Assembly (NCBI GenBank): GCA_022820365.1
Contig: JAJEFO010000021.1
Span: 1-47,587 of the forward strand
Source: Silicimonas sp.
GTDB lineage: Bacteria; Pseudomonadota; Alphaproteobacteria; Rhodobacterales; Rhodobacteraceae
Direction of reading: 5' to 3'
Length of the DNA stretch: 47,587 nt
Positions 1-18,854 of this stretch are shown here, piece after piece. The notes under the pieces are model-generated. The model did no database searches. It was not told where the DNA came from and saw nothing but the letters and a program-made list of their open reading frames with translations. The position numbers and the translations under genes were made by a program. Numbering within the stretch: position 1 is the first letter of the stretch; each line of letters opens with the position of its first letter.

Positions 1-538
1 CTGTCGGGAAGGGAAGTACGCGGCCGAAACGCAACCCGTCCCTGAATGACCAGCAATGTCGGAAGACCGTGGGAAGAAACACCCAATCCCGCACGAAACA
101 ATCCGGGAAATCCGCAACGGATCAATCAGAAATACAACACCTGCCTGGAACCGTCGGGGGATCCATCGGGTCGAGGCCTGGTCCGATGCGCACGCCGCGA
201 CCAGGAGGCGAGCGGGATGCCCGGAGCCTACCCCGTCGATCTTCGCAGGCGTGTCGTCGCGGCCGTGCGGCCAATGCGTCAGGACTCGCGCAGGGCGGCG
301 GAACCCGCCGCCTTGCGGCGACCGGCCTACACATCGCCACCCCCGGTCGCCAGGATACGGAACAGCCCTCCCGGGATCCGGTTCCGCGATCCCGGCAAGG
401 CCGGCCGGCTCCAGGCCGCCTTCAAAGTCTCGGGGAACGGCTCCGAGAAAGGGCGCGAGCCCCTTTCGGGATCACCGCCGGGGAGTTGCCGGCGCGCGGC
501 AAGAGTTTCGGCGCGGGAGCGGCGTTGCCGGGCCCGCG
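1..538. other. Non-coding stretch downstream of the kinase gene
   Basis: I recognise no gene here. Open frames on both strands give low-complexity Arg/Pro/Ala-rich products typical of GC-rich non-coding DNA. Two inverted repeats are visible. One is a perfect 9-bp pair, GGCGACCGG at 317-325 and CCGGTCGCC at 343-351. The other is a 7-bp pair, GAAAGGG at 447-453 and CCCTTTC at 461-467. The second lies about 70 bp past the stop of the minus-strand kinase gene and could be its terminator, but no T-run follows it in that direction. Confidence 0.5.
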
Positions 539-2887
539 CTACTCGTCCGGTCCCGGCACGCGGTAGCCGATGCCGCGCTCGTTCTGGATCCAGGCAGGCC
601 GGGTCGGGTCGTCGCCGAGCTTGCGCCGCAGCTGCTTGACGAAAGTGCGGACACGGTCCGGGTCGGCGCTTTCCGAACCGTTCCAGAGCTGGCGGATCAG
701 ATACTCATAGGTCGTGATCCGGCCCGCGTTCAGGGTGAGCAGGCGCAGGAGCGCGAACTCGGTGGCGGTCAGCTTGACCGGACGGCCGCCCACGGTGACC
801 CGGCGGGCGTCATAATCGACGGCTAGATCGCCGAGCACGAAGGTTTCCGGCCCCGCGTTCTTGCGCAGCGCGGCCTGAATCCGCGCCGTCAGTTCGGTCG
901 CCGAGAAGGGCTTGACGAGGTAGTCGGCGGCACCTTTCTCCAGCGCCTTGGCGATGGTCTCGTCGCGCCCGTAGGCGGAGATGAATATGACCGGGACGTC
1001 GGCGAGTTCGGGGAGCGTCTCCATGAGCGCGATGCCGTCGGCACCGGGCAGCATCAGGTCGAGCAGGACCAGGCAGGGGGCCTCGGTCCTGACGATCCCG
1101 GGCAGCTCGTCAGGATCGGCCGTGGCGAGCGGCGCGTAGCCGGCTTGCGCGAGCGCGTCGCGGACGAAGCGCAGCGTCCGCGGGTCGTCGTCCACGACCA
1201 GGACGGGAAGCGGCTCGCGGTTCCGTGCGGTCGCGAGGGAACCGTCGCGGGCGGCGCCGGGCCTGCGGACGGCGTCTTCCGCAACCGGCAAGGTGAACGT
1301 GAAGCTTGCGCCTCGGCCCGGTCCGCCGCTGTCGGCCCGGATGCGGCCGCCATGGGCCTCGACCAGGCCCTTGCAGATGGCGAGCCCAAGACCGAATCCC
1401 CGCGGGTCGCGCCCGCCTTCCCCGCCGGGACCGGCGTATTTTTGGAACAGGCGCGGCAGTTGCTCCGCCGAAAATCCCCTGCCCCTGTCCGAAACCGAGA
1501 TCGCGACATGCTGGCCGTCATGCTCTGCGGAGACCTGCACGGGAGACGAGGCGGGCGAGTGCCGGGCGGCATTGGACAGGAGGTTGCTGAGCACCTGCAC
1601 GATGCGCGGGCCGTCTGCCAGGACCCCGGGCAGGTCCAGCGGCAGGTCAACGACGACGGTGTGCGTGCTGCCGCCGTTGACGAACGCGGTTCTCGCCTGT
1701 TCCACCAGCGTTCGCACGTCCGTCGCCACGGGCGAGACCGACAGCATCCCCGCCTCGATGCGGCCCGCATCCAGCAGGTCGCGGATGAGGCTCCGCATCT
1801 GGTCGGCCTGCTCGTCGACGACACGGAAGAACTGCTGCATCTCCACCGGGTCGAGCGTCGGCGAAGCATCCAGGACAGCGGATGTCGAGCCCTTGATGGC
1901 CGCAAGCGGCGTGCGCAGCTCGTGGCTCACCATGTTCAGGAACTCCGAGCGCAGGCGGTCGAGCTCCTCCAGCGGCGCGAGGTCCTGCATGGTGACGACC
2001 ACGGAGGCCACCTTGCCGTCCACGCCCTGGATCGGCGTCGCGTTGATCAGCATAGAGACGCTTCGACCGCCGGGCGCCGAGAGCGCGACCTCTTGGGCAC
2101 GCACCGTCCCGGCGGCTGTCAGGGCCGCCGCCAGCGCCGCCTCGTCCAGCGCGATCTCAGGCCCGTCACCGAACCGGCAGGTCACGTTTTCCGGCAGCGT
2201 CAGGGCCGGGGCGCCCGGCGTGCGGAGGGGTGCGAAGATGCGGTCGGCCTCCCGGTTGGACGACACCGGCCGACCGCTGTGGGCGTCGATGACCAAGACG
2301 CCGACCGGAGTGGTCTCGATCAGGGCCTCGAGGTCGGCCCGTGCGCGCTGCTCCTGCTGGTGAGTCTTCGCGTTTACGATCGCGGCCGCCGCCTGCGAGG
2401 CGAACAACATCAACATTTCCTCGTCTGCGGCAATAAAGTCGGGCCGGTCCACTTTCCCGGCCAAGAAGAAATTGCCGACCTGCATGCCGCGGTGGCGCAT
2501 GGGCATGCCGAGCAGCGTCTTCGTGCGCACCAACTCGTCGGAAAAGCCAAGCGCACGGATATATTTGGACAGATCGTCGAGCTTGAACGGTCCAGGCAGG
2601 TCTCGGAGATTGGCGAACAGCTCCGGGCCGTCGGGCCACTCGGCGAGCTCGCGGTGCTCGTCGGGCGTAAGGCCGGAAGTCACGAACTCGCGCGGTTTGC
2701 CGGAGTCGTCGATGGTGACGATGAGGCTGTAGTGGGCGCCGGTGAGCGCGCGGGCGCTGTCGGCGGCCTCCTGCAGCACGGTGTCGAGATCGAGGCTCGA
2801 GCCGAGGCGCAGCACCGCCGCGCTCAGCTTGGAGATGCGCTCTCCCAGGACCTCGACTTCCCGCTCAAGCTCGTTGCGGCTCTTCAA
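539..2887 (-). CDS. Hybrid histidine kinase fused to an OmpR-type response regulator
   Basis: A 782-residue protein carrying a whole two-component pathway. It has a short N-terminal helix, a GAF-like sensor (about 25-175) and a PAS-like segment (about 185-305). HisKA follows with phospho-acceptor His322 in SHELRTP, then HATPase (N box about 434-442, G boxes SDRGRGF and GFGLGLAI). The receiver (about 561-676) has acidic pocket VVDDD, acceptor Asp610 in LLDLMLPG and Lys659 in the KPF motif. The C-terminal winged helix (about 683-780) ends GIGYRVP. No membrane segment is visible, so the sensor should be cytosolic. The start is TTG, chosen because a strong GGGAGGG ribosome site lies just upstream. 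Kinase-plus-receiver hybrids are common; a DNA-binding output domain on the same chain is much less so. Ligand and targets are unknown. Confidence 0.9.
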   Translation of the reverse strand: MKSRNELEREVEVLGERISKLSAAVLRLGSSLDLDTVLQEAADSARALTGAHYSLIVTIDDSGKPREFVTSGLTPDEHRELAEWPDGPELFANLRDLPGPFKLDDLSKYIRALGFSDELVRTKTLLGMPMRHRGMQVGNFFLAGKVDRPDFIAADEEMLMLFASQAAAAIVNAKTHQQEQRARADLEALIETTPVGVLVIDAHSGRPVSSNREADRIFAPLRTPGAPALTLPENVTCRFGDGPEIALDEAALAAALTAAGTVRAQEVALSAPGGRSVSMLINATPIQGVDGKVASVVVTMQDLAPLEELDRLRSEFLNMVSHELRTPLAAIKGSTSAVLDASPTLDPVEMQQFFRVVDEQADQMRSLIRDLLDAGRIEAGMLSVSPVATDVRTLVEQARTAFVNGGSTHTVVVDLPLDLPGVLADGPRIVQVLSNLLSNAARHSPASSPVQVSAEHDGQHVAISVSDRGRGFSAEQLPRLFQKYAGPGGEGGRDPRGFGLGLAICKGLVEAHGGRIRADSGGPGRGASFTFTLPVAEDAVRRPGAARDGSLATARNREPLPVLVVDDDPRTLRFVRDALAQAGYAPLATADPDELPGIVRTEAPCLVLLDLMLPGADGIALMETLPELADVPVIFISAYGRDETIAKALEKGAADYLVKPFSATELTARIQAALRKNAGPETFVLGDLAVDYDARRVTVGGRPVKLTATEFALLRLLTLNAGRITTYEYLIRQLWNGSESADPDRVRTFVKQLRRKLGDDPTRPAWIQNERGIGYRVPGPDE

Positions 2888-3019
2888 GCGACCCTCCCCG
2901 ACTGCGGCTTGCGGCGCGTGCCGTCACCGGCGGCCGAAGTCGGCGACGCTTGCGCGGACGCCTGTCGCCGAAAGCCCGAGGCGGCGCGACGCGCGGCGTT
3001 TCGCGGATCCGGAGCTGGC

Positions 3020-3252
3020 GGGGTTCCGGGGCGAATCAGCGGTACCGTCCGCGCATGCCCGTGCGAAACACCCGAAATCCTCACCATTCTTGCATTTCCC
3101 ACACGAAAACAGTTCCTGCACGGCAGAAGAGTTACGGAACATTCCACCTGTCCGACCCGCACTTCACACGACGAGGCAACTGATGCAACTGCAAAGTCTG
3201 AATCCGACGCGCCTCATCTCACCCCTCGTCGCAGCTGCTCTTCGGGCCGGCG
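3020..3252. repeat. Dispersed intergenic repeat, copy A
   Basis: This segment is partly identical to about 7676-7908. The best-conserved core is 3055-3084 against 7711-7740: 30 bp with one mismatch, including GCGAAACACCCGAAATCCTC in both copies. Shorter blocks downstream keep the same order and nearly the same spacing (CACACGAAAA, GAGGCAAC/AAGGCAAC, GATGCAACT). Read on the minus strand, both copies encode a similar peptide with the core EDFGCFARA, so it may be a decayed coding element. No terminal inverted repeats were seen. Confidence 0.65.
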
Positions 3253-3406
3253 GAGGGAGCAGTTGAGGATCCGGGTTGAAGCCGCGCGGGCGAAGGAGGG
3301 CAAGGACCCGTCGCTGGACTTCGCGGTGACGCTTGATGCCAATTTCGCCGCCGCACGGTCAATTATGACCGCCAGCACCTTGCCCAAATCTGCATCTTGC
3401 CGGTCT

Positions 3407-3419
3407 GAGGCCAAGCCTC
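3407..3419 (-). terminator. Possible hairpin terminator after the porin gene
   Basis: GAGGC-CAA-GCCTC forms a 5-bp hairpin directly after the porin stop codon, which occupies 3421-3423 on the minus strand. No T-run follows, so this is a weak call. Confidence 0.3.
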
Positions 3420-3420
3420 G

Positions 3421-4461
3421 CTAGAAGCTGTACCTGAGAGAGAACAACGCCTTGGTGTCGCTGGAATGCAGGAACTTTATGTCGCCCAACACGACCTGCG
3501 CGTCCTCGTAGCTCAGGCCGAGATTCGCGGACAGGCCCCTTGCCAGGTCGTACTGAATGCCCAGTGCCACTGAGACCTCCTCCTGTCCCTCGATTTGGCC
3601 GTAATGTCCTTCGAGAGACAATCCCCAAACCATGATCTTTCGGCGAATTCCTGACGAAATGTACCAGCGCGTGGCGTTCACGCTGGAGGAAGAAAAGCTC
3701 TCTTGCCCCAAGCCAACGTCAAGCAACGTGCTGCCATAAACGACCTCCCCGACCACGCTGTATCCACGGCTCTTGAACAGGAGCGATTCGTCTGCGGCTT
3801 CGTATGCACCTTGGCCGGCACGAAACGTGAAACGATAGTCTCTGCTTCCGTTGCCTATCGGTCGCTGGAATGTCAGTCCCAAGTCTATGTTGCTGTCCTC
3901 GTCCACCACACCGCTCGCCACGAACGGGCCAACGCGACCCGCATATCCTGCGCTCCTGTCGGAGAGCTCGCCGTGGAAATCATCAAATTCCAACGTCGCA
4001 TTGCCGAAGCCTCGCCTCCGGCGGGTCTGATCGCGCACTGTGTCCGAAACATTGCCAAGCAACACGGTGCCCCAGACGCCCCCTACCGACAACGCCGCAT
4101 CATCCGTGTATTTCTCATTTTCCTCGGGTGACAGGGCTTCGTCAGAGACGAGTTGACCGGCATAGCCCAGCTCGACTCGCCACCGGTTCGGAAGCTGGAT
4201 CTTGGCAACCGTCTCCAGGCTGCCGATCAGCCCTGGTCCGTTGTCCTCGTCGTCATCAGCTCCGGTCGTGTACCGGGCTTCGGTCGCTCCGGTCAGCGTC
4301 AGCGTCACGTCACCGATCTCCATCGCGACCGCTTTTTCAAGCGGCGAATGGCGGTCAGGATTCGGCAGACCGCCCTGCGACACTGCAGGGCCGGCGTCCA
4401 CAATTCCAGTCAGGGCGAGTGCCGCAACGAGTCCGGAATGCCGGAAGGCTATCGCGCCCAT
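3421..4461 (-). CDS. Gram-negative porin
   Basis: A 346-residue outer-membrane beta-barrel protein. The N-terminus has a hydrophobic stretch (LVAALALTGIVDAGPAVS) that can serve as a signal peptide. The mature chain alternates short amphipathic strands with acidic, glycine-rich loops and ends LFSLRYSF, the aromatic last strand typical of barrel proteins recognised by BamA. The length fits the general porin family of alphaproteobacteria. I chose the ATG at 4461 because it removes an arginine-rich leader and places the start 4 bp after the stop of the haloperoxidase-like gene, so the two are probably cotranscribed. The permeant solute cannot be read from the sequence. Confidence 0.8.
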   Translation of the reverse strand: MGAIAFRHSGLVAALALTGIVDAGPAVSQGGLPNPDRHSPLEKAVAMEIGDVTLTLTGATEARYTTGADDDEDNGPGLIGSLETVAKIQLPNRWRVELGYAGQLVSDEALSPEENEKYTDDAALSVGGVWGTVLLGNVSDTVRDQTRRRRGFGNATLEFDDFHGELSDRSAGYAGRVGPFVASGVVDEDSNIDLGLTFQRPIGNGSRDYRFTFRAGQGAYEAADESLLFKSRGYSVVGEVVYGSTLLDVGLGQESFSSSSVNATRWYISSGIRRKIMVWGLSLEGHYGQIEGQEEVSVALGIQYDLARGLSANLGLSYEDAQVVLGDIKFLHSSDTKALFSLRYSF

Positions 4462-4465
4462 TGCC

Positions 4466-5959
4466 TCAGCTCCGCTTCGGGAAGGTCGAGCGGAAGGCAT
4501 GGCGGGCAATGGCGCGCCCCGCAGCGAGACCCTGAACATGGTCGATCGCCCAGTGGACCCCGCCATAGATCCTGCTCATGCCGTTTTCCTCGGCCATGTG
4601 ACTGAGACTTGTCCAGTGCCGCGTGACGCCCTGCAGCTGCGGCCACAACACCATGTCAGGCGACCTGCCGGAGAACGCGATGTCATCCCGGCCATGGATC
4701 AGGGCTATCATTTCCGCGGCGGCGGCGCCAAAGGTCGAATGGCCGGCCGTGTACGACGGGAATTCCGGCGTGGGAATGTAGCTGCGCCAGCCGGCGTGTA
4801 CGTCCACCCTGTTGTCCGGATTGCCGAATTCCGACGCCCGCGCACGGATGGCCGTTTCGGGACGGAGCACATCGTAGTGGTACTTGCTGTCCCAGGAAGA
4901 GATCGACGCATCGCACTGCGTCATGCCAACCAAGGCCATCGCCCGGGCGAGCTCAAGGAAACCAAGGTCGCGATCCTGGAGGAGCTGCATCGCGATGTAC
5001 ATGAAGTGGCCAGGATTCGTCACTCCCCAGGGCCCGTCTTCCCAGAACATGGCCATTTCCGACTGGTCAGCCGTGCGGGTCGTGCTGTCGTTGCCGCCCA
5101 GCGTGCGGATCATGTCGAACTCTTCCGCAAATTCCGGACTCCTGGGGTCGTGGAAGCCGGAGGCCCGGAACTGCGATCCCGTCTTCATCGTCCATGGCGT
5201 GATCATCCCTTGGCCGGGGTAGAGGCCGCGCTCAAATGACGGGAAGGACGGTCCCGGCGAGGCGCCGTAGAACGGACCGGTCGGGCTCCACTGCAGGGTA
5301 TCCCCGCGCCGTCCGTAACGTCCGAGATAGTAGTTGACCTCGCTCGGTTCCGAGCCGTCGTCAGTTCGCAGGTCGAGCACGGTCATTGCGGCCCTGCGGC
5401 CCCATTCCACGCCTAGGGACTTGGCTTCGCTGCCAGGAAAGCGCCTCAGAAACGCGATGCGTTCGAAGAGGAACGGTTGCTGGAATGCCTCAGCTGCGGC
5501 GAGCGAGAAGGCAACTCCATAGGCGACCTCGGGATCCGCGTCAGGAGGTCCGTTTCCGATCCCGAACGGCTCGCCATAGGTCCTCGCGATGCCGTTGGCG
5601 GCAAGAAACCCCGCCGCCGTGGCCAGTCCTAGGTTGTACGCCGCCCTAGGTGCAAGAACCCGCTGGTCCCGGACCTGCTGCAAGGCCGCGTCCACCCAGT
5701 GGAACACGGGGTTCCACCTGCCCGGCTCGAGGATCTGGCTGGCATAGGACATGCCGTGTGCCCGCGTGATGGTGCCGGCGCCTATACCTCCGGCGAGGGG
5801 AACGGCGGCGACTGCAGCGCCAAGCGATTTCACGAGCTGACGCCTCGACAGGGAATACCGAGGACATGAACCTTTCACAGGCTCGTGGAGTCTTGGGTGG
5901 GACGAGGATGCCGATGAAAGACGGCCGGTCGAGCTGATCGAGATCAATGTTTCCTCCAT
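4466..5959 (-). CDS. Tat-exported vanadium haloperoxidase / PAP2-family enzyme
   Basis: A 497-residue protein of the vanadium haloperoxidase and acid phosphatase superfamily. All three signature motifs are present, numbered from the chosen ATG: Lys359 and Arg366-Pro367 in KYHYDVLRP, the PSYTAGHS block with His407, and Arg463, His469 and Asp473 in SRIYGGVHWAID. In the family these bind vanadate or phosphate, and the last His carries the metal or forms the phospho-enzyme. Residues 38-60 (SRRQLVKSLGAAVA and following) form a twin-arginine export signal, so the enzyme should act folded in the periplasm. The ATG at 5959 was preferred over a GTG at 6142, which would add 61 low-complexity residues. 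It could halogenate organics or be a phosphatase; the motifs do not decide between these. Confidence 0.8.
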   Translation of the reverse strand: MEETLISISSTGRLSSASSSHPRLHEPVKGSCPRYSLSRRQLVKSLGAAVAAVPLAGGIGAGTITRAHGMSYASQILEPGRWNPVFHWVDAALQQVRDQRVLAPRAAYNLGLATAAGFLAANGIARTYGEPFGIGNGPPDADPEVAYGVAFSLAAAEAFQQPFLFERIAFLRRFPGSEAKSLGVEWGRRAAMTVLDLRTDDGSEPSEVNYYLGRYGRRGDTLQWSPTGPFYGASPGPSFPSFERGLYPGQGMITPWTMKTGSQFRASGFHDPRSPEFAEEFDMIRTLGGNDSTTRTADQSEMAMFWEDGPWGVTNPGHFMYIAMQLLQDRDLGFLELARAMALVGMTQCDASISSWDSKYHYDVLRPETAIRARASEFGNPDNRVDVHAGWRSYIPTPEFPSYTAGHSTFGAAAAEMIALIHGRDDIAFSGRSPDMVLWPQLQGVTRHWTSLSHMAEENGMSRIYGGVHWAIDHVQGLAAGRAIARHAFRSTFPKRS

Positions 5960-6829: not shown

Positions 6830-7108
6830 CCGCACCGTCGCCAGCTCTAGCGTCACGGCTCTTTCGGATCCATGAGCCGTTACGGCAATTCGCATGACAA
6901 CGCCCAAGCCAAGAGCTTCATCAAGATTCGGAAGGTCGAGGCCGTCTACTTCGGCGATCAAGAGACATTCGAAGATGTGGGCGCAGACTTGCCGACATTC
7001 ATCGAAGACACCTACAATGCAACTCGCCTGCATTCAGCGCTCGGTTATCTGAGCCCTAACACGTTCGAGAAGATCAACGCCCCGGATGGGACCAAAAGTG
7101 CCGAATAA
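6830..7108 (+). pseudogene. IS3-family transposase remnant (C-terminal end)
   Basis: The frame starting MSRYGNSHDNAQAKSF and continuing ALGYLSPNTFE matches the C-terminal end of the IS3-type OrfB transposase (usual pattern MSR.GN.HDNA.AESF ... RLHSALGY.SP..F). Upstream in the same frame, HRRQL-stop-RHGSFGS continues the family pattern but is broken by a TAG at 6848-6850. The catalytic Glu of the DDE triad in NAQAESF is Lys here, so the protein would be inactive even if expressed. The N-terminal three quarters and OrfA are missing, and I could not see matching IS ends. Confidence 0.8.
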
Positions 7109-14242: not shown

Positions 14243-14761
14243 TCAGCGGCGAAGCGCTTTTTCGATCTGGTCGTTGGCCTCTTCGAGCGCGATGGCGGCG
14301 TCCAGTTCGCCGATCAGGGCGAGCTGCAGGTAGTCGCCGAGAATTGCTTCCACCCTGGACCATTGCCGGATGCGCGGGCGCGGGGTCGCGTTTTCAAGCG
14401 CTTCCAGCTGGTTCGGATACCAGCGATACTTCGCGATCACGTCCGCATCCCCGTAGACGGACGCTCTCGTGGGCGGCTGGCCGATTTCGAGCGCCAGCCT
14501 CTTCTGGAAGTCCGCCGACGTCACGAAGTCGATGAAGGCGCGCGCCAGTTCCGGGTTCGGCGCGTCAGCCGGCACCGCGAGCAGCCACGCCCCGAGCATC
14601 GGGCTGGATCCCACGTTCTGCCCCGGCGCGGCAACGACCTCGATCTTTCCCGGAACGCGGGACTTTTCCGGATCGTCAAGCGATGGCGCCCATGACGGCC
14701 ACAGCTCGATCGACATCGCCGTCGTTCCCTGCATCAGCGCATCGCGGACTTCCGACGACAT
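14243..14761 (-). pseudogene. C-terminal part of a carbohydrate-binding protein gene, cut by the RIT element
   Basis: About 172 residues matching the C-terminal half of extracellular solute-binding protein family 1: LMQGTTAMSIELWPSWAP, then SPMLGAWLLAVPADAPNPEL, AFIDFVTSADFQKRLALEIG and GQPPTRASVY. The signal peptide and the first lobe (roughly 230 residues) are missing. The frame runs straight into the terminal inverted repeat of the RIT element, and the other half is not on the far side of the element. It cannot be an exported binding protein as it stands, which should disable the importer unless another binding protein serves it. Confidence 0.85.
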
Positions 14762-14843
14762 GCCGCTAACCGGATTATGCCGCGTTCGCGTCCCAAGGAA
14801 CTGATTTTCCTTTCCTTTCCACCGTCGTTTTCGGCATAATCAC
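14756..14843. repeat. RIT left terminal inverted repeat (88 bp)
   Basis: The reverse complement of this segment matches 18208-18295 with only a few mismatches. Inside it is a smaller perfect inverted pair: GATTATGCCG at 14773-14782 and CGGCATAATC at 14832-14841. They flank a central part with the duplicated AAAGG/CCTTT motif and the palindrome CGCGTTCGCG. The stop codon of the third recombinase (14840-14842) lies within the repeat. Confidence 0.92.
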
Positions 14844-15844
14844 AGCGACTTCAGGAAGGCCAGCAGGGTGTCGTCGGGCTTGAACCGGCCGGACTTGACG
14901 TCGACCGGACGGGTCCTCTCCATGGCCTTTTCCTTGAGGCGGAGATCCTCATGCAGGTAGATCTGCGTCGTCTCGACCGATTCATGGCCGAGCCAGAGGG
15001 CGATCACCGTGCAGCCGACACCTTCGTGCAGCAGCGCCATGGCCGCACCGTGCCGAAGGCTGTGCGGGGTGACCTTCTTCTCCCCGAGCGACGGGCAGGT
15101 CTTCGAAGCTGTGCGGCAATGCCGGGCGACCAGGCGCTCGACCGCGTCGCGGCTGAGCGGCCCGCCGCGGTTGCTGGGGAACAGCGGAGCGTTTTCCGGA
15201 CCGCCCCGTTCGTCGATCCAGGCTTCGAGGATCTTCACTGTGTCGCTGCGCAGAGGCGTCGCGCGGTCCTTGCGTCCCTTGCCGTGGCAACGCACGTGGG
15301 CACCGGTCCCGAGCTCGACGTCCCGGATCCTGAGGCCGGTCAGTTCCGACACGCGAAGGCCGGCCTGGGCGGCAAGCGCCAGCAGCGCCCGGTCGCGCCG
15401 TCCGTACCAGGTGGCGAGGTCGGGCGCGGCAACGAGCGCCTTGATCTCGTCCTCCGTGAGCCAGGTCACGGTGGCCTTGTCGTGACGCTTTCCGGGCAGC
15501 TGCAGGATCTTCTGGCAATGGTGCAGGACCTGGGGCTCGCTGGCGGCGACATGGCCGAAGAAGGAACGGATGGCGGCAAGGCGCAGGTTGCGGCTCTGGA
15601 CACTGTTGCCGCGTTCGGTCTCGAGGTGTTCGAGAAAGTCCGCGACCAGGTCGATGTCGATGTCCGCCACGTCCATGTCCTCCGGCGCCTTTCCGCACCG
15701 CGCCTCGGCGAAGTTGACGAGCAGCCGGAAGCTGTCCCGGTAGCTTGCGATCGTGTTGGCGCTGGCTCCGAGCTGGCCGGCGAGCCGTTTGGTGAAGAAC
15801 CGCTGCACGAGCGGCGCCAGCGGCGTCGGCAAGGTTCCGGTCAT
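14840..15844 (-). CDS. RIT tyrosine recombinase, third gene
   Basis: A 334-residue tyrosine recombinase with an N-terminal SAM-like DNA-binding domain (about 15-105) and a C-terminal catalytic domain. Catalytic residues are all visible: Arg in AGLRVSEL, Lys in GKGRKDR, His and Arg in PHSLRHG, His in LGHESVETT and Tyr in QIYLHEDL. Its ATG overlaps the TGA of the preceding recombinase as ATGA, so translation is coupled. It is the smallest and most XerC-like of the trio, and its stop codon falls inside the terminal inverted repeat. Confidence 0.92.
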   Translation of the reverse strand: MTGTLPTPLAPLVQRFFTKRLAGQLGASANTIASYRDSFRLLVNFAEARCGKAPEDMDVADIDIDLVADFLEHLETERGNSVQSRNLRLAAIRSFFGHVAASEPQVLHHCQKILQLPGKRHDKATVTWLTEDEIKALVAAPDLATWYGRRDRALLALAAQAGLRVSELTGLRIRDVELGTGAHVRCHGKGRKDRATPLRSDTVKILEAWIDERGGPENAPLFPSNRGGPLSRDAVERLVARHCRTASKTCPSLGEKKVTPHSLRHGAAMALLHEGVGCTVIALWLGHESVETTQIYLHEDLRLKEKAMERTRPVDVKSGRFKPDDTLLAFLKSL

Positions 15845-16779
15845 GACGCGCCTCCGTCCCCGAGGGTCCGCAGCCCGCGTTCGCTGGCCAAGGCCAGCAG
15901 TTCCGGCACGGCCTCGATGTAGTAGTAGGTGCCGGACGGTCTCGCGTGCCCCAGGTATGCGCTGAGCTTGTACATCTCCGCGTCCACGTCACGCCCCTGC
16001 CGGAACCAGTCGAGGATCGTTCTGGAGGCCATCGCGTGGCGCAGATCGTGGATGCGTGGCCCGCGGCCCGGCGGGAGTGGGCGCAGGCCGATCGCCTGAG
16101 TGACCTCGAGGAAGTTCCCTTGAGCTGCCCTGATGCCTGCACGCCTGCCGCTGTCGACCCGAAAGAGCGCGCCGCTTCCGGCATGGGCGACGGCCCGGTC
16201 ACGGAACCCCTGGTATTCCTGCAGCTTGTCGACCACGCACCGGGTGACCGGAATGACTCGGCTTCTCCCGTTCTTGCCGCACCTGACGGCAAGGGTGGCG
16301 TCCCCGGCATTGAGGTCCCGGTCATCGAGACCGATCGCCTCGCCGATCCGCAGGCCGGTGACCGCGATCAGGCCGAACAGGGTCGAGCAGGTCGCGCCGC
16401 GCAGCCCCGACGGTGACGGCAGAGCCGATGCCGCGGCCACGATCTGCCTGATCTCCGCCTCGCTGTAGATCCATGGTCGCGGACGTGTGCAGCGCTTCCG
16501 AACCAGCCGCTTGGGCGGAATTTCGTGCCGGCCGTCAATGCCTTGCAGCCAGGTTGCAAAGCTGCGCACGGCGCCGAGCCGGATGGCCCACGTGTTCGGG
16601 CCGGCCGATCCGAACGCGGCCCTCCAGCGCAGGAACAGGTCCGTCGTGACCCGTTCGACGCCCTCGGCGTCGGCAAAGGCGACGAACGGCTTGAGGACCT
16701 TGCCGACCGACGCCATGTCGGCGCCGAAGCGGCGGCGATGGTCGAGATACTCGGAGAGCAAGGTGGAGAGCGACGTCAT
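15841..16779 (-). CDS. RIT tyrosine recombinase, second gene
   Basis: A 312-residue tyrosine recombinase. The catalytic residues are Arg in TGLRIGEAIGL, Lys in CGKNGRSR, His and Arg in IHDLRHAMA, His in YLGHARPSGT and Tyr in the following TYYYIEAVPEL. The start at 16779 forms an ATGA overlap with the first recombinase. The Tyr-rich run TYYY leaves it unclear which Tyr is the nucleophile. The reason RIT elements keep three different recombinases is not established. Confidence 0.9.
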   Translation of the reverse strand: MTSLSTLLSEYLDHRRRFGADMASVGKVLKPFVAFADAEGVERVTTDLFLRWRAAFGSAGPNTWAIRLGAVRSFATWLQGIDGRHEIPPKRLVRKRCTRPRPWIYSEAEIRQIVAAASALPSPSGLRGATCSTLFGLIAVTGLRIGEAIGLDDRDLNAGDATLAVRCGKNGRSRVIPVTRCVVDKLQEYQGFRDRAVAHAGSGALFRVDSGRRAGIRAAQGNFLEVTQAIGLRPLPPGRGPRIHDLRHAMASRTILDWFRQGRDVDAEMYKLSAYLGHARPSGTYYYIEAVPELLALASERGLRTLGDGGAS

Positions 16780-18050
16780 GATCCGGCCTCCGCGGCGGGC
16801 TGCGGCACGGGCCAGGGACGCGCAAGCGGGCGCAGGGCCTCGATGTCGTGCCGGGCGTAGACCGTCGTCGTCCTCGCCGAGTCGTGGCGCAGCATGTTGC
16901 CGATGTCGGCCAGTGGCATTCCGTCCTGAAGCAGGGCCATGCCCAGGGAATGCCGGAAGACATGGCAGCGAACCCTGCCTCCGGGCGGCGCGACACCGGA
17001 TGCCGCATGGGCCTTGCGCAGCGCCTTCCTGACCGGCGCGGCGGACGTGAATCCCGGGAAGGGCGGCCGGACGCTGACGAAGAGATGCCGCGAGCGTCCC
17101 GTTCGCCCGTGGCGGATCCAGTCCACGATGGCCTCGCCCACGTCGACGGGAAGCGGCATGGCCGCCTGCCGCCCGCACTTGCCGCGGACCAGGATCTCGC
17201 CGGCATCCCAGTCGATGTCGTCGAGCCGGATGGCGATGACCTCCTGGCCGCGCAGGCCGAGCCGGGCCATCGCCAGAAGCATCGCATGGTCGCGGCGGGC
17301 GACGGCGCTGTCTCCCTTGGCGGCCGTCAGGACACGCTCGACCTCTTCACGCGAAAGGTGCCAGGTCGGTGCGGGCGACCGGGGAGCGGGAACGCTTGGG
17401 ACGCAGGGAACCAGGTTCCGCTCGATCCGGCCTGTCGCGAACAGGAACCGGAACAGCGATCGCAGGGCTGTGGCCGTGATTCTTGCGCCGGCAGGACCCG
17501 TTTCGCCGACTGTTCCGAAATGCGCGACGATGTCGGCACGGGTGATGGCGTTCAGGTCGCCGGGCGCCGAATCGCCGAACCGGAAGGCCAGGAAGCGGCG
17601 GGCCACGCCTTGACGCGACCTGATCGTGCCGGGCGCCAACCCGCACCGGGTGCGCAGCCAGGCCCTGTAGTCCGTCATCAATGCCTCGTGGACTGTCTGC
17701 GCCGGTTCGGGCGGTTGCGGCGCGACCGCGACGGCGTTCTCCTTGACGAGCCAGGCGATGAACCGGCCCAGGACCGAGGCCCATATGCGTCCGCTGCGAA
17801 CCGAGAGCCGCGCCGGCAGCGGCTCCAGGACCTGCGCAAGAACCGACCCGTCAACGCCGTCCGGCGTCGTCAGCCCTCTGCGCCCCGCTTCGGCGCAAAG
17901 CCAATCGACGGCAGGAGCGTAGTCCCTGACGGTGCCGGTCTTCAGGCCGCGCGACAGAAGCGAGGCCAGGAATGCAGTGCGCAGGGGAAGCAGCCAGTCC
18001 GGCATCTCCTCCCTCGGCAGCGGGACTCCGGATGAGTCTGATTGCACCAT
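16776..18050 (-). CDS. RIT tyrosine recombinase, first gene
   Basis: A 424-residue tyrosine recombinase, the largest of the trio, with about 110 extra N-terminal residues before a SAM-like core-binding domain (about 115-210). The catalytic set is Arg in LGLRGQEV, Lys in RGKCGRQ, His and Arg in CHVFRHSLG, His in LRHDSARTT and Tyr in VYARHD. The promoter should lie between 18051 and the right inverted repeat (about 157 bp). As first gene it sets the level of the coupled trio. Confidence 0.9.
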   Translation of the reverse strand: MVQSDSSGVPLPREEMPDWLLPLRTAFLASLLSRGLKTGTVRDYAPAVDWLCAEAGRRGLTTPDGVDGSVLAQVLEPLPARLSVRSGRIWASVLGRFIAWLVKENAVAVAPQPPEPAQTVHEALMTDYRAWLRTRCGLAPGTIRSRQGVARRFLAFRFGDSAPGDLNAITRADIVAHFGTVGETGPAGARITATALRSLFRFLFATGRIERNLVPCVPSVPAPRSPAPTWHLSREEVERVLTAAKGDSAVARRDHAMLLAMARLGLRGQEVIAIRLDDIDWDAGEILVRGKCGRQAAMPLPVDVGEAIVDWIRHGRTGRSRHLFVSVRPPFPGFTSAAPVRKALRKAHAASGVAPPGGRVRCHVFRHSLGMALLQDGMPLADIGNMLRHDSARTTTVYARHDIEALRPLARPWPVPQPAAEAGS

Positions 18051-18207
18051 TGTCGTTCCTCCATTGTTGAAAGCTGGAACGGACAGGATTGCACGATTTG
18101 GGCGGATGTCTGCGGGCCGGACGCCGAAACGATCCTGCGGCCCGTCGAAACCGTGCCGCCGACCCGCTCAGGCGTGGGCGCAGAGGGAATGAAGATCCGG
18201 CGGGCAG

Positions 18208-18295
18208 GTGATTATGCCGAAAACGGCGGCAGAAAGGAAAGGAAAATCAAATCCTTGGGCCGCGAACGCGGCATAATCCGGTTAGCGGCATGTCG
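18208..18295. repeat. RIT right terminal inverted repeat (88 bp)
   Basis: Mirror image of 14756-14843. It carries the same internal inverted decamers, GATTATGCCG at 18210-18219 and CGGCATAATC at 18269-18278, and the same GAAAGGAAAGGAAAATCA tract. The outer limit is the last base shared by both ends (TGTCG). Weak similarity continues about 20 bp further, so the true tip could be slightly different. Confidence 0.92.
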
Positions 18296-18854
18296 GCCGA
18301 AGCCCGTGCTTCGCGCGTCATGTGGTCACTTCCGAGTAGGGTGTTGGGGACAGGGCGTTGTCCGCGCGCTCCCGAACATTACACAGGCGGAACAAAACCG
18401 CAACACTTTTCTGACCGATGGTTAGGCAAGTTTGTAATCCCACAAAGTTGCAAGGCCCAACCGCTTCGCCCGTTCGAGGAGGGGCTTGACCGATGATGAG
18501 TGCCAAGACGTGCGTCCACGAGGCGTCGGTGCTCGCATCGATTCGAGCATGTCGCACATTTCAATTAGGTCACGTCAGGACGTACCGTTTGCTAAGGCCA
18601 ATTGGATCACGCCGTCTTTTTGCAAGCGTGACACGAATTTGACATCGAATCCGAACAACTCCGGCGCACGCCTTTATGATTCGGCGAATCAGTTGTGAGA
18701 GTGCGGACGTGGATCTTTCGGAGGTGTCGGTCGACATCGTCGCGGAATCAGACGAGGCGCGCCTCCGAGAGCTGACGCACGACTGCCTCGGCGCCCTCCA
18801 GCCCCGTCGGCGAAACCGTGCGCTACGTCGCGCACTGCCCATCGAGTCGGATTC
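18296..18854. other. Non-coding flank right of the RIT element
   Basis: No gene is supported. In particular, the minus strand does not encode the missing N-terminal half of the binding protein interrupted at the left end. The first bases outside the repeat (ATGTCGGCCGAAGCCCG) weakly resemble those outside the left end (ATGTCGTCGGAAGTCCG, minus strand). The rest gives short frames without recognisable families. Confidence 0.55.

Follow-up and report, generated by a model that had tools for sequence, protein, structure and literature searches.

How does a short element that codes for three tyrosine recombinases move, and what does its copy in this contig represent? The window, the whole stretch of 47,587 nucleotides from Silicimonas sp. 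analyzed here, raises this question. Recombinase-in-trio (RIT) elements carry ritA, ritB and ritC, tyrosine-recombinase genes that lie side by side in this order with short overlaps, and why they need three recombinases has been called hard to understand (PMC3414803). As of 2023, no RIT transposition had been reproduced (PMC10214605). An additional palindrome, usually present on one side only of an inserted copy, offers a clue to the way in which these poorly understood elements may be mobilized.

The recombinase trio and its ends

The preliminary description of the locus had reported three overlapping tyrosine-recombinase genes between 88-bp inverted ends, without cargo; open reading frames, Pfam profiles and a comparison of the ends confirm this arrangement (Table 1). 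The element is 3,540 bp long. The crossover core takes up three of these 88 bp (TCG), which places the element proper at approximately 14759–18292. The trio occupies 14840–18050 and leaves no room for cargo, and the ORF list of the window contains no fourth conserved gene (GinD or Srap) inside the element. The ritA/ritB and ritB/ritC overlaps comprise 4 bp each (ATGA). For ritB, the ATG at 16779 was chosen as the start, while the program-made ORF list gives a GTG at 17178. The genes are named after the published RIT order (PMC3414803, PMC8138268, PMC2864759).

Catalytic residues had likewise been ascribed to all three proteins. The alignments of RitA and RitC with XerD (1a0p) span R, K, HxxR, H and Y, in agreement with this assignment. 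The aligned region of RitB with an XerC-like protein and XerD reaches R and K only, and its HDLRH and LGH...Y motifs were picked out by eye in the sequence. R, K, HxxR, H and Y are taken here as the catalytic positions of XerD. The integrase domain recognized by Pfam starts at residue 232 in RitA, 107 in RitB and 128 in RitC. RitA has been described as having two core-binding domains, and RitC as having an extra C-terminal helix (PMC8138268).

Judged by its sequence, the segment 14756–18295 is a RIT element of a known kind, and nothing sets it apart as an element. This identification follows from the best matches of RitA, RitB and RitC, each of which is the same-position gene of related trios, together with the ATGA overlaps, which are as described for RITs (PMC2864759). 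The assignment to the RIT class in the preliminary description is therefore supported, the proteins matching RIT trios and the ends being shared with other copies. The ends published for RITs measure 28-9 or 34 bp (PMC3414803, PMC10214605), compared with 88 bp in the window.

Table 1. Features of the RIT element and its flanks in the window
Feature	Position	Strand	Details
Second half of an ABC-transporter solute-binding-protein gene	14243..14761	-	SBP_bac_1 profile 219-306 here, 7-218 on C37
6-bp core, left junction	14753..14758	-	Minus-strand TCGTCG; brings the disrupted transporter gene back into frame
Inverted end, ritC side	14756..14843	+	93% identity with the ritA-side end over 88 bp; overlaps the ritC stop region with its final bases
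ritC, 334 aa tyrosine recombinase	14840..15844	-	Pfam Phage_integrase 1.2e-35; XerD alignment
ritB, 312 aa tyrosine recombinase	15841..16779	-	Pfam Phage_integrase 2.4e-14; XerC-like and XerD alignments
ritA (first in the trio), tyrosine recombinase of 424 aa	16776..18050	-	ORF; Pfam Phage_integrase 4.8e-25; XerD alignment
Inverted end, ritA side	18208..18295	-	88 bp, 93% identical to the other end
6-bp core, right junction	18293..18298	+	TCGGCC; same bases in empty repeat copies, e.g. L046, L047
Repeat, right half; empty at other places in the genus	18293..18420	+	Left half on C3; flank comparison

Copies of the element and the order of the window contig

The genome comprises 4.71 Mb in 135 contigs. 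Matches of 100% identity to the ritC-side end stand at the start of both C83 and C3, over 136 bp in each case; the ritA-side end is matched at 100% over 113 bp at the end of contig C37. With the window junctions included, three ritC-end flanks and two ritA-end flanks indicate at least three RIT copies in the genome. C3 and C83 have exactly their first 141 bases in common, and the last 141 bases of C37 start at the palindrome described below; overlaps of 141 bases at RIT ends are expected where an assembly with k=141 breaks at a repeat. The element recurs, identical over 3539 bases (100%), in locus L044, a contig from another metagenome bin, where it is joined to the C37 flank (100% over 1199 bp). 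A RitA scan of genome contigs gave this single locus. L044 was rejected as an independent insertion; it equals G400:C76 and bears the C37 flank. That contig is filed in the bin of another family, perhaps through misbinning. A DNA search of 61 genomes yielded no second full-length copy, the matches in genus relatives being partial or diverged. The copies with identical ends suggest that the element is mobile. The earlier claim of recent activity holds insofar as further copies with identical ends exist in the genome; the likeness of the two ends of the element as such does not bear it out.

The repeat whose right half lies at 18293–18420 is more than 130 bp long and is present in several copies in the genus (G000 contigs C83, C98, C38 and C31, and genus genomes). 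RITs of this genome occupy at least two copies of it, and other copies are empty. In addition, L011 (G000:C22) contains a tandem pair of RIT trios at 347–5460, the second with a short RitA match only.

The window locus probably consists of two RIT copies, one in the transporter gene and the other in the repeat beside lpxK, joined by assembly. On contig C37, the first half of the transporter gene runs up to a RIT copy at the contig end, and C37 and the left part of the window form one reading frame when joined without the element. Beyond the right-hand half repeat lies lpxK. In all four relatives fetched (the genus set has seven), the genes of C3, the contig that starts at another RIT junction, lie beyond lpxK, and none of the genes from the left of the element is found beside lpxK. 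A chimera is proposed because the halves of one gene lie on C37 and on the left of the window, and because lpxK adjoins the C3 genes in the relatives; the true loci are likely C37-RIT-window-left and C3-RIT-window-right. Two RIT copies might instead have recombined in the strain and exchanged their flanks, which would make the order real. The contig as delivered has this order, and 3.5-kb repeats are able to recombine. We nevertheless consider this unlikely, given that the ritA end joins the first half of the transporter gene on both C37 and L044, that lpxK keeps its C3 neighbors in relatives, and that the contigs break with 141-base overlaps at RIT ends, as for an unresolved repeat. The locus had been taken for an intact copy. 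Its genes are intact; the locus itself is most likely a fusion of two different copies via the repeat, and the one-sided palindrome is missing. The palindrome is absent on both sides of the element in the window, the flanks of which probably stem from two insertions. Caution is warranted in any use of the flanks of this likely misjoined locus.

The palindrome at one end

In this genome, the palindrome TTATGCCGATATCGGCATAA adjoins one RIT end only. On C37, GTTATGCCGATATCGGCATAAC lies between the target and the ritA end, and on C3 it lies between the target and the ritC end. The element is oriented oppositely in these two placed copies, and in each of them the palindrome is on the side away from GAAG. 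Even when up to 3 mismatches are allowed, the genome contains it at the C37 and C3 sites only, and the C83 junction lacks it. Among 385 genomes of the class, the palindrome pattern (18 fixed bases) is present in two, this one and G400, in each at a RIT; in G400 it is on the contig that matches L044 identically. A generic palindrome search of the other RITs of the genome and genus revealed none that stood clearly outside an end. L011 has a palindrome of 39 bp at 216–254, near ritA.

A BLAST search with the palindrome returned 85 plasmid records. Among the 60 matches listed, 27 are exact over the whole 20-mer, and all 27 of these lie near RIT genes or remnants. Twelve of the exact matches were fetched, three fell within loci fetched by RitB, and twelve were placed by their coordinates relative to the ritB match, from which they are 1.1 to 6.2 kb away. 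One further match with an inexact flank likewise contains the palindrome. In several plasmid RITs, the palindrome lies beyond passenger genes. Such genes were observed between an end and the trio in L114, L115, L119, L120 and L147, and include those for a DMT transporter, a sensor kinase and regulator, a DEAD/DEAH helicase and an alkene reductase set. In L117, a second palindrome of the same type stands next to another RIT remnant.

RitB relatives occur in 588 of 72,556 plasmid records, at least one of them being a chromosomal-type XerC. Fifteen of the 588 records were sampled, nine chosen and six fixed beforehand (every fifth row of part of the list). A palindrome adjoins one end in 12 of these 15 RITs: six from the top of the list, including the S. 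fredii element, three distant ones (Salmonella, Streptomyces and Rhodococcus), and L157, L158 and L160, which belong to the six fixed beforehand. It is absent from the other three of the sample, namely L155 and L156, in which RitA is cut or was not found, and L159, whose trio looks whole. The letters of the palindrome in the distant RITs differ from TTATGCCGATATCGGCATAA. The Rhodococcus palindrome reads TAATCCCGA, and the ends of that element show the changed half-site as TTATCCCGA. As a control, 120 stretches of 1.26 kb were simply shuffled, and none of them contained a palindrome with arms of at least 12; this comparison understates the hairpins of real DNA. Other palindromes with arms of 12–16 bp are located inside L130 and L158 and in or near L156 and L160. 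The opposite end was unmatched for L124 and L044 in an end search of 21 loci, and also for L160. On pHG1, a 40-bp palindrome lies outside the ritA end of one trio, for which the opposite end was not found. The Methylocystis RIT L158 has almost identical inverted ends of 98 bp at 3311–3408 and 6986–7083. The palindrome also shows where a RIT truly ends, even when the element carries cargo.

Target sites, a possible mechanism and known systems

A natural target of RITs is the HExxH codons of ardC, a plasmid anti-restriction gene. The ardC gene carries a RIT on Phaeobacter pP13_h and is free of one on a Sulfitobacter plasmid (L099 versus L127). The flanks of the filled and empty genes agree by 98.8% over 995 bp and by 100% over 1504 bp, and the two alignments share four bases, CCCA. 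At the junction without the palindrome, GACCCA equals the empty gene, and the palindrome junction reads GGCCCA. In the transporter gene, the palindrome-free junction TCGTCG restores the frame, and the other junction is TCGGCC. In these two cases of a known target, and in these only, the palindrome-free junction retains the core bases of the target and the other junction those of the element; the left-junction core of the window, which restores the transporter frame, is taken to belong to the target. Removal of the element, the palindrome and 5–6 bp recreates the uninterrupted target gene. When the flanks are joined with 5 bp dropped, the HExxH motif of ArdC reappears in the same register in 15 of 16 plasmid loci; the remaining one, L120, is inserted in another gene. 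The two core 5-mers of one insertion are equal in 4 of the 15, and several insertions have an inner core that differs from both. A plain 5-bp target duplication was rejected on the grounds that the junction cores are equal in only these four.

The palindrome is located downstream of HExxH in all 15 ardC insertions, adjoining the ritA end in eight and the ritC end in seven. Its side is therefore fixed with respect to the target, which would also be expected if the palindrome were part of the target and RITs preferred to insert beside a pre-existing one. The empty ardC allele without a palindrome refutes this for ardC. The empty copies of the genus repeat that were compared also lack it, and its occurrences in this genome and in the two of the 385 class genomes are all at RITs, making a pre-existing palindrome highly improbable. 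If the palindrome were instead a fixed part of one element end, as ordinary end asymmetry, a single palindrome per insertion would be accounted for, and related elements might well keep it on the same side. The eight-to-seven division between the ends in ardC contradicts this, and the two copies of this genome with identical ends, on C37 and C3, bear it at different ends; we regard such asymmetry as an improbable explanation.

We consider probable an explanation that combines a RIT, a one-sided palindrome on a fixed side of the target, a circle with a double-core joint and a chimeric window. The palindrome is built of the same kind of half-site as the element ends, and half-site motifs flank 5–6 bp on either side of it. 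This arrangement implies that a circle joint would contain two mirror-image core sites. The element may leave as a circle whose joint would comprise the ritC end, a 5–6-bp core, the palindrome, another 5–6-bp core and the ritA end, giving a nearly mirror-symmetric double site. Insertion would proceed by a crossover between either core of the joint and the core of the target. The choice of core would set the orientation of the element, and the palindrome would stay on the same side of the target either way. A crossover with two possible cores and a polar target would thus explain the free orientation, the fixed side of the palindrome and the exchange of core bases. The circle, the part played by each recombinase and the sequence of strand exchanges are inferences. 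It is possible, though we propose it only tentatively, that either core of a mirror-symmetric double joint is reactive and that the element retains three recombinases to bind half-sites of different kinds, those of the ends, the palindrome and the target. A defined joint, the cores and a natural target make both RIT movement and the need for three recombinases testable.

The closest known systems are the RITs of Van Houdt (2009 and 2012) and Ricker (2013). The overlapping A, B, C trio, the length of about 3.5 kb and the inverted ends are common among RITs, as are insertion into genes and several identical copies per genome (PMC3414803, PMC2864759). An inverted repeat with an "overlapping palindromic sequence" was reported in 2012, unexplained and unlike known sites (PMC3414803). 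Neither a one-sided palindrome nor a target rule appears in the passages of the RIT literature searched (PMC3414803, PMC10214605, PMC2864759, PMC8138268, PMC5385486). Within this literature, the novelty lies in the end structure, namely the one-sided palindrome and the target rule.

Strand-biased circularizing integrative elements (SEs) and GInts likewise carry several tyrosine recombinases, and the SE circle takes 6 bp of one flank and deposits them at one junction (PMC10214605). These properties, including the 6-bp fingerprint left by SEs, might suggest that the present element is an island of the GInt or SE type. We see virtually no likelihood of this, as the fourth gene is missing and three full recombinases stand in RIT order. 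SEs and GInts differ in having four conserved genes, a larger size and cargo, and the sections of PMC10214605 consulted mention no palindrome for them. The Tn554 family, which differs in its set of TnpA, TnpB and TnpC, with TnpC described as the counterpart of Srap/GinD, also has more than one tyrosine recombinase and leaves a 6-bp footprint from the donor site (PMC10214605).
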